The notes below the pieces were generated by a model. That model had not been told where the DNA came from. It did not search any database and worked only from the letters and a program-made list of their open reading frames with translations. A stretch of 64,000 nt of DNA from Litomosoides sigmodontis (Eukaryota > Nematoda > Chromadorea > Rhabditida > Onchocercidae), in the NCBI GenBank assembly GCA_963070105.1, contig OY718808.1:2220238-2284237 (forward strand). Direction: 5' to 3'. The position numbers and the translations under genes are program-made. Below are positions 2,766 through 5,700 of this stretch, piece after piece; position 1 is the stretch's first letter; each line of letters begins with the position of its first letter.

Positions 2766-5700
2766 TTAAGTGGAAATTTTCTTTCGAGCTAACAAACTTA
2801 TATATGTAAAACTTGCATTAAAGCATGCAAAAAACGCTGGAAAGATGATGCTCGAGAGACGATCTATACGATCCGGTGTCCAGGAACTGGATGATTTCCA
2901 ACGTGATCGACACCATTTCAACTCGAATTCTTCCACCGGAAGCATAAATCTTTTCTCGAATTCACAAACACCTTTTGGACTTGATTCTACACCTTTAATC
3001 TAAAGGGACATTTTCGCTGTTAGAATTAATTAAATTGAATTCGTTCGGGCAAATCGATCATCATGTGCGATAATTTCTGGAAGGACTTATCAGTGATGGC
3101 TTTTCATGGAAAGGATTTATCAGAGATTGTGATAATTTAGGGAGGATTTATCAGAGATTGTGATAATTTAGGGAGGAGTTATCAGAGATTGTGATAATTT
3201 AGGGAGGAGTTATCAGAGATTGTGATAATTTAGGGAGGATTTATCACAGATTGTGATAATTTAGGGAGGAGTTATCAGAGATTGTGATAATTTAGGGAGG
3301 ATTTATCAGAGATTGTGATAATTTAGGGAGGATTTATCACAGACTGTGATAATTTAGGGAGGAGTTATCAGAGATTGTGATAATTTAGGGAGGATTTATC
3401 AGAGATTGTGATAATTTAGGGAGGATTTATCAGAGATTGTGATAATTTAGGGAGGATTTATCAGAGATTGTGATAATTTAGGGAGGATTTATCACAGATT
3501 GTGATAATTTAGGGAGGATTTATCAGAGATTGTGATAATTTAGGGAGGATTTATCAGAGATTGTGATAATTTAGGGAGGATTTATCAGAGATTGTGATAA
3601 TTTAGGGAGGATTTATCACAGATTGTGATAATTTAGGGAGGATTTATCACAGATTGTGATAATTTAGGGAGGATTTATCAGAGATTGTGATAATTTAGGG
3701 AGGATTTATCACAGATTGTGATAATTTAGGGAGGATTTATCACAGATTGTGATAATTTAGGGAGGATTTATCAGAGATTGTGATAATTTAGGGAGGATTT
3801 ATCAGAGATTGTGATAATTTAGGGAGGATTTATCACAGATTGTGATAATTTAGGGAGGAGTTATCAGAGATTGTGATAATTTAGGGAGGATTTATCAGAG
3901 ATTGTGATAATTTAGGGAGGATTTATCAGAGATTGTGATAATTTAGGGAGGAGTTATCAGAGATTGTGATAATTTAGGGAGGATTTATCAGAGATTGTGA
4001 TAATTTAGGGAGGATTTATCAGAGATTGTGATAATTTAGGGAGGAGTTATCAGAGATTGTGATAATTTAGGGAGGATTTATCAGAGATTGTGATAATTTA
4101 GGGAGGAGTTATCAGAGATTGTGATAATTTAGGGAGGATTTATCAGAGATTGTGATAATTTAGGGAGGAGTTATCAGAGATTGTGATAATTTAGGGAGGA
4201 CTTATCAGAGATAACAGTGATAACGGTTAGTTTATTACACTCTGCTAGTTCGTCGCCTAAAGCAAAACTTACATTTTTGCAGTGTGGTTTTTTTGGTCGT
4301 TGACTGTTTTCCATATCTTTCACTTTTGAACCGATAATTGCTAGCTCAATTAGTGATGAAAAGATGAAGGTCATTGAGACGAGCATCCAAATATCTGAAC
4401 AATTCAATTTCATAAGTCATCTTATGTCCACACAAATAATACGAACAAATGCTTAATTCTTCATGCTTTTATTAATCAATTAATTTGAATTGGTCAATTG
4501 GACAAAATAACTTTTATTACTTTTAAATTAATAATTTTTTAAATGTTAAATTTGAATTAATTAAACTATTTTACGGTATTGTCATTTATTTGAAATATCA
4601 GTACTGTGAGTATTTAAGTTACCAATAGCTTTAATATACGATACTCTTGGCAAATTTCGCATAATATTGCCAAATTGAAAGATCATTGCTAGGAGTGCAT
4701 TAACACCAAGCATTGTTCGAGCAGGTATTGCTCGTGGTCCCAGTGAAAATGACACCCAACTATAATCAGATAAGTGTTGAAATTTTCTAAATTTTACAAA
4801 TTTTGCTAAAAAAATTTTAAATATTCTAAAAGTTTATCGTAATCATCCAAGAATACGAGTCAATTTTTGTCATTTAAAGATTGAATTTAACTGTAACAAT
4901 TTTTTTAACTTCATCTCATTTAATTATAAAAATTATCTCAAGCAGCACTGGTTTTTCAATGATCAAAAATTTACGCATCAAAAGATTGCTTTTTCTCGCA
5001 TTGTTTTTAAAATTAAACAATCGAATTAAGCAGTTAAGCAAATTTTTCTGATTTTTTTCAATTTTTAAATTAAATTTTTGCAATTTTTCTCAATTCTTAA
5101 TTTAGTTCCATCAATGCTCATCAATGAATTATTCAAATGTAAATTACCTAATGAAAATGGTAAGGTAAGTGGGAACATAAGCCTGCATGAAATACCATAT
5201 GCAACGCCTTTCGAATGTTAAATTCACATGCAACTCATCCCACATTCCAGCTGGATATTTCTAAAACAGTGTAAATTCACAATTTAAAAATTTCAACACC
5301 CAACTGAACCAAAGTTTAGTACCGTAGTTTCACTAGTGCTGGAAATTTTATGTGATTAAATGAACATGTAGCGCACATTTTACTTTCATCATTATCTATT
5401 TCATTGGAGAATTTCAAATCCTCTCAAAATTTCTCCTTTAACTCTAAGTTGCATTTTCATTTCATTTATAATTTTTGAAATAAATTTGCTAAAGTTAGGG
5501 GAAAACAAAAGATTGCAAGTAAACCTCCATTCTACGAGTTGCTGTTATATTAATTAAAATGAAATCCGGCAGTAATATTTCACTGACAGCATAGACTGGA
5601 TTTGAATTAATCCAACGCATTCGTACTTCTTGATTGTTGTAGTTAAAGCTAAAAGTCAACTTTTTATTGCTATAATTAAAAGTAAAAATTAACTCAATTG

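Follow-up and report, generated by a model that had tools for sequence, protein, structure and literature searches.

In the filarial nematode Litomosoides sigmodontis, a parasite of rodents, the M3-M4 intron of one channel gene holds about 70 inverted TGATAA sites in a single tandem array, and the locus raises the question of whether these sites serve gene regulation or merely came with the repeat that contains them. In the 64-kb stretch of DNA analysed here (the window), the evidence makes it highly probable that the array is a locally born, young and nearly neutral minisatellite, the presence of GATA-like motifs in it being in all likelihood incidental.

The array occupies 1101 of the 1273 bp of an intron in a minus-strand Cys-loop gene that is acetylcholine-gated chloride channel-like. 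The parts of this gene are given below, with the evidence for each in brackets.

2766..2999, minus strand: last exon with M4 and the stop, downstream of the array intron (exon joining, ortholog alignment; outside the Pfam match)
3000..4272, minus strand: M3-M4 intron, GTAAGT...TTTAG, 1273 bp (joined exons; HCKN/I junction in four of the four filarial orthologs aligned)
4273..4394, minus strand: exon with M3, upstream of the array intron (exon joining, Pfam, ortholog alignment)
4623..4759, minus strand: exon with M2, Neur_chan_memb (Pfam, exon joining)
5148..5260, minus strand: exon with pre-M1 and M1 (exon joining, ortholog alignment)
about 13.6-13.9 kb: N-terminal channel exon, with the ligand-binding exons between it and M1

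The exons for M1, M2, M3 and M4 join on the minus strand into one open stretch of 201 aa across 4272-3000. Residues 28-121 of the joined peptide, which correspond to M1 to M3 and leave the M4 exon outside, match Neur_chan_memb (E 1.1e-22); when six channel exons were given singly to Pfam, a match was obtained for the M2 exon alone. The peptide has 124 matches among solved sequences, with glycine, GABA and GluCl receptors among the 60 listed. A protein search found 129 proteins, including four filarial orthologs (P0002-P0005) at 88-93% identity, of which P0003 from Dirofilaria immitis is named an acetylcholine-gated chloride channel. Eight of the 120 proteins listed were aligned, and the four filarial ones have the HCKN/I junction and the M4 part in common. 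With exons of a minus-strand channel gene on both sides, the channel-intron location proposed in the initial annotation is borne out.

A partial L. sigmodontis protein of 205 aa (P0008), encoded on a 7598-bp contig, is 100% identical to the query over 62% of its 201 aa. It stops exactly at the array intron (2766-4394 region) and hence lacks M4 and the C-terminus. This end is consistent with a contig that broke at the repeat, and it says nothing on copy number. Further gene models of the channel may be truncated owing to the repeat.

The array itself was delimited as follows.

3112..4212, plus strand: tandem array with consensus AGGATTTATCAGAGATTGTGATAATTTAGGG (TRF, unit cutting, genome search of the 31-mer)

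TRF reports a period of 31, 35.5 copies, 97% matches, 0% indels and a score of 2069, and unit cutting resolves the 1101 bp into 35 full 31-bp units followed by a 16-bp partial copy at the end. Given this score, and since the reversed 31-mer has no match in the genome, the array as a tandem repeat is well past chance. All 35 full units are exactly 31 bp long and free of indels, and each carries TTATCA (columns 6-11) facing TGATAA (columns 19-24) with 7 bp between, which amounts to 70 half-sites. In the region 3041-4260, which includes the edges, there are 37 TTATCA and 36 TGATAA, or 73 half-sites, those beyond the 70 being TTATCA at 3087 and 4202 and TGATAA at 4218. The initial annotation had already described 35 indel-free units with facing motifs and about 70 core sites, and both descriptions agree with TRF and unit cutting; it also recognised the array correctly, although the extent that it gave (3113-4197) began one base off and omitted the 16-bp partial copy.

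The full units are invariant in 28 of 31 columns, and their differences are confined to the other three. Column 5 has T in 26 units and G in 9, column 12 has G in 27 and C in 8, and column 16 has T in 34 and C in a single one. Variation mainly at two places had been noted before, and columns 5 and 12 are indeed those places. The CAGAGA/CACAGA difference is not neutral to the palindrome, which the C in column 12 lengthens from 6 to 8 bp, giving TTATCACA-GAT-TGTGATAA.

The initial annotation pointed out that no unit has lost the palindrome. Since the units were copied from one another recently, its presence throughout the array is no evidence of constraint, and 35 palindromes retained in this way are not 35 observations. 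Moreover, the chance that none of the three variable columns falls within the 12 palindrome columns is 0.22, which leaves conservation of the palindrome unsupported as a sign of selection. In a set of 20,000 random 31-mers from the genome, 13.8% contain an inverted repeat with arms of at least 6 bp and 1.9% one with arms of at least 8 bp, as in the C variant; among 20,000 base shuffles of the unit, the corresponding values are 3.3% and 0.035%. The palindrome is therefore ordinary for DNA of this genome, but not for the base composition of the unit alone.

The folding of the unit bears on the possibility that the array is a hairpin repeat whose role lies in DNA or RNA structure, such as the regulation of splicing. 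The DNA of a single unit has a folding energy of -2.0 kcal/mol (z -3.7 relative to dinucleotide shuffles) and that of the C variant one of -5.2 / -5.5 kcal/mol (z -7.2 / -8.3). The sense RNA of the unit reaches -2.3 kcal/mol (z -4.3) and that of its C variant -6.5 kcal/mol (z -8.1), and a precedent is available in CeRep25B, a palindromic intronic repeat that PMC4039745 reports as statistically linked to multiple alternative splicing in C. elegans. Against a structural role, the predicted hairpin is weak, with a 6-bp stem, in 27 of 35 units and moderate in 8, arms of this length are already frequent in random genomic 31-mers, and the antisense RNA of the unit (-3.6 kcal/mol, z -1.5) is barely better than its shuffles, 17 of 200 being as good. 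In addition, the four aligned filarial ortholog proteins have a plain exon junction, with no alternative exon seen. The hairpin-forming repeat that was suspected at the outset thus holds in the form of a weak hairpin, and we regard a function exerted through it as very improbable. The hairpin is stronger in the common variant on the loop side, and this would be in keeping with some selection or drive favouring the palindrome.

The edges of the array are older than the core units and are more informative on constraint.

3022..3111, plus strand: left edge, with two decayed copies that can still be recognised and a third, weaker one; TTATCA at 3087 intact (local alignment for 3022-3097; 3098-3111 by eye)
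4197..4230, plus strand: right edge, one decayed copy interrupted by 3 inserted bp, retaining TTATCA (4202) and TGATAA (4218) (local alignment)

Aligned locally with the repeated consensus, the left edge (3022-3097) scores 44, a value that none of 300 shuffles equals (best 37), and the right edge scores 33.5, again equalled by none of 300 (best 30). In the two decayed copies recognised by eye on the left, one of four half-sites is intact, and the weaker third copy, found by alignment, has neither half-site. The decayed edge copies together retain three half-sites, out of six or, with the weaker copy counted, out of eight; these numbers are too small for much, yet they suggest no sign of strict constraint. 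In the right edge copy, both half-sites survive despite the 3-bp insertion, which counts against a purely neutral reading. A uniform core with decaying edges is the usual pattern left by slippage or unequal exchange.

If GATA factors used the facing arrangement of the unit, its spacing might be expected to stand out elsewhere, and facing TTATCA/TGATAA pairs were counted genome-wide at spacings 7-12 only. TTATCA-N7-TGATAA occurs 109 times; 35 occurrences are attributed to the array from its unit count, leaving 74 outside it. Spacings 8-12 have 361 pairs in total, a mean of 72.2 per spacing, so no preference for spacing 7 was found over these spacings (74 vs 72.2, binomial P 0.85). The backward-read patterns occur 12 times at spacing 7 and 54 times at spacings 8-12, or 12 and 10.8 per spacing, as raw counts without a hexamer-frequency baseline. 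TGATAA has a density of 1.8 per kb, both strands together, in a nuclear sample of 190 kb (19 stretches of 10 kb; 200 kb with the remainder). From this density about 53 facing pairs per spacing are predicted and about 72 were found, or about 1.35 times as many over the six spacings together, which indicates some mild general clustering of facing TGATAA sites in the genome. A degenerate 27-bp GATA-like tandem repeat, rich in TTATC/TATCA, was also seen elsewhere in the genome (C5:3006063-3006215, equivalent to 6063-6215 of L024), with 6 copies and 83% matches.

These data bear on the proposal that the array is an intronic enhancer, with GATA factors (ELT-2 or another ELT) binding cooperatively to the facing sites so as to activate or adjust expression of the channel or of a gene nearby. 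Most Cys-loop channels belong to neurons or muscle, and the channel type is thus unlike the intestinal targets expected of TGATAA. The spacing of the unit is no commoner than others genome-wide, a palindrome free of variable columns is expected often enough by chance in core units that are too young to tell, and in the older edge copies half or more of the half-sites are gone. On the other side, TGATAA is the ELT-2 motif in C. elegans according to PMC4207467, and PMC7712238 reports ELT-1, -2, -3 and -5, one each, in Spirurina. Binding of GATA factors to the array, as predicted from the motif, is possible because the genome encodes GATA zinc fingers (seven PF00320 matches above the cut-off), and a unit of 31 bp would span about three helical turns and could place the sites on one face. 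Nevertheless, we consider an enhancer very unlikely; the motif and its density make up the whole of the positive support for a putative regulatory role. Slimmer still is the chance of a more specific scenario, in which facing GATA sites form a homotypic, lineage-specific cluster in the intron of an acetylcholine-gated chloride channel and this cluster has now become a copy-number-tunable, GATA-dependent regulator of that channel.

The array might alternatively be a sink or decoy that titrates GATA factors, and its 73 half-sites in about 1.1 kb do represent roughly 35 times the sampled density. Extrapolated to 65.9 Mb, however, that density gives about 119,000 TGATAA sites, of which 73 are about 0.06%. 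Because so many sites are extrapolated, those of the array are too few to act as a sink, and this reading is rejected by the numbers, with next to no probability left to it. The emphasis that the initial annotation placed on GATA factors, whether through an enhancer or a sink, is accordingly not upheld.

The young minisatellite is favoured by several direct observations, namely the homogeneity of the array, its uniqueness, its position in an intron and its decayed edges, and this part of the earlier interpretation stands. A genome search with the 31-mer, a check that had been proposed with the initial annotation, gave 35 matches at up to 3 mismatches, all inside the array, and a 251-bp probe likewise matched at the array locus only; many unrelated loci with the same unit were not found. 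The 31-mer is confined to the array within 3 mismatches, and the repeat was therefore probably born in place. Origin from a dispersed repeat or transposon found no support, as the 31-mer has no second locus at this threshold.

We infer the following course of events. A piece of about 31 bp in an ordinary and probably once short intron, already containing a 6-bp inverted repeat, would have been duplicated and then expanded to 35 near-identical units through replication slippage and/or unequal exchange, the short hairpin possibly aiding expansion. The likeness of the units would have been maintained by repeated turnover, and the changes from G to C in column 12 and from T to G in column 5 may each have arisen once or a few times and then spread among units. 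The uniform core, the decayed edges and the two spreading variants fit slippage or unequal exchange, as does an excess in the order of variants at lag 3 (17 matches vs 11.6 expected, P 0.029), which is one of 12 lags and not significant once corrected. This excess is a hint of a weak three-unit periodicity, and so of multi-unit duplication. Recent unequal exchange or slippage, as first suggested, is therefore likely, with the mechanism itself conjectural. The array, presumably functionless, would have been tolerated through its intronic location and a sense strand nearly free of AG (2 AG, alongside 10 GT, in 1101 bp), so that cryptic splice acceptors would scarcely arise. Avoidance of splice signals was rejected as a special feature, as G occurs just once per consensus unit on the sense strand and this composition accounts for the near-absence of AG.

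How readily could a minisatellite contain such a motif pair by accident? A rough model applies the pair rate of spacings 8-12 to spacings 0-19, and puts the probability that one or more arrays in the genome have inverted paired TGATAA motifs in the unit at 0.03 for 50 arrays, 0.29 for 500 (a number that follows from the density in Brugia, 7.9 per Mb) and 0.87 for 3000. Arrays of at least 10 copies with units of 10-200 bp number two in the window and none in the 190-kb nuclear sample; arrays so long and clean are therefore not demonstrably common in the genome. The second array in the window, at 14462-14678, consists of 14.5 copies of a 15-bp unit, TTGTTGTTATTGTTG, with 92% matches.

The window also contains very long simple repeats: (AAT)n at 12527-13492 (966 bp, 98% matches), (AGAT)n at 28188-28661 (474 bp, 98% matches) and (ATT)n at 59639-61592 (1954 bp, 99% matches). 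In the 190-kb sample, four repeat rows have a period below 10 and a length above 200 bp, the longest being about 590 bp and one degenerate. Among other coding features of the window, Pfam matches mark a Clc-like exon (22099-22416, minus strand), a glycosyl hydrolase family 47 exon (35054-35395, plus strand) and an exon with a nematode fibronectin type III domain (62162-62488, minus strand). An open frame of 434 aa at 52800-54101 (plus strand) shows, by eye, a great abundance of Cys, Gln and Pro. No Pfam match was obtained for a 410-aa portion of it (52872-54101), for which a search found one relative (P0001, E 2.4e-7, 33% identity over 24%).

The array is an ordinary repeat and a further instance of the palindromic minisatellites of nematodes, some of which are intronic. 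Its length may vary, in which case it could serve as a marker for L. sigmodontis isolates. It also teaches that the units of one array should not be counted as independent witnesses to the conservation of a motif. Should GATA factors bind it after all, the locus would constitute a natural experiment in how a single step of tandem expansion gives rise to a strong homotypic cluster of sites. Judged by title, none of the papers listed on GATA factors or ELT-2 together with tandem repeats deals with such an array, none of those found on satellites as decoys concerns nematodes, and none of those found on filarial intronic minisatellites treats such an array.

Homotypic TGATAA clusters are known at nematode intestinal genes that are targets of ELT-2. 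The array resembles them in presenting the motif many times over, but it is a perfect tandem array in a channel intron, and its spacing is not preferred over spacings 8-12 in the genome. The closer likeness is to satellites. PMC3634726 defines long satellites as repeats of up to 200 bases in at least 10 copies, a definition that includes the present array (31 bp, 35.5 copies), and reports their density per Mb as 19.2 in C. elegans and 0.7 in T. spiralis, and as 47.1 in B. malayi with all contigs counted but 7.9 in Brugia with those above 2 kb. In Caenorhabditis satellites, as described in PMC4595182, repeat size is accurately conserved and palindromes, proposed there to favour expansion, are frequent in the units; the array is similar in its homogeneous, palindromic units of constant length (35 of 35 at 31 bp). 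According to the same source, about 90% of the satellites in any one Caenorhabditis species fall into families of related satellites, whereas the array has a single locus within 3 mismatches and no multi-locus family. CeRep25B is a palindromic and mostly intronic C. elegans minisatellite according to PMC4039745, and the array shares with it short palindromic or near-palindromic units in tandem within an intron. CeRep25B differs in its motifs (AGCAGAC/GGTCTGC), in its unit and in its many loci, which that report assigns essentially to clusters on chromosome III and less to II, whereas the array is a single locus in another species.
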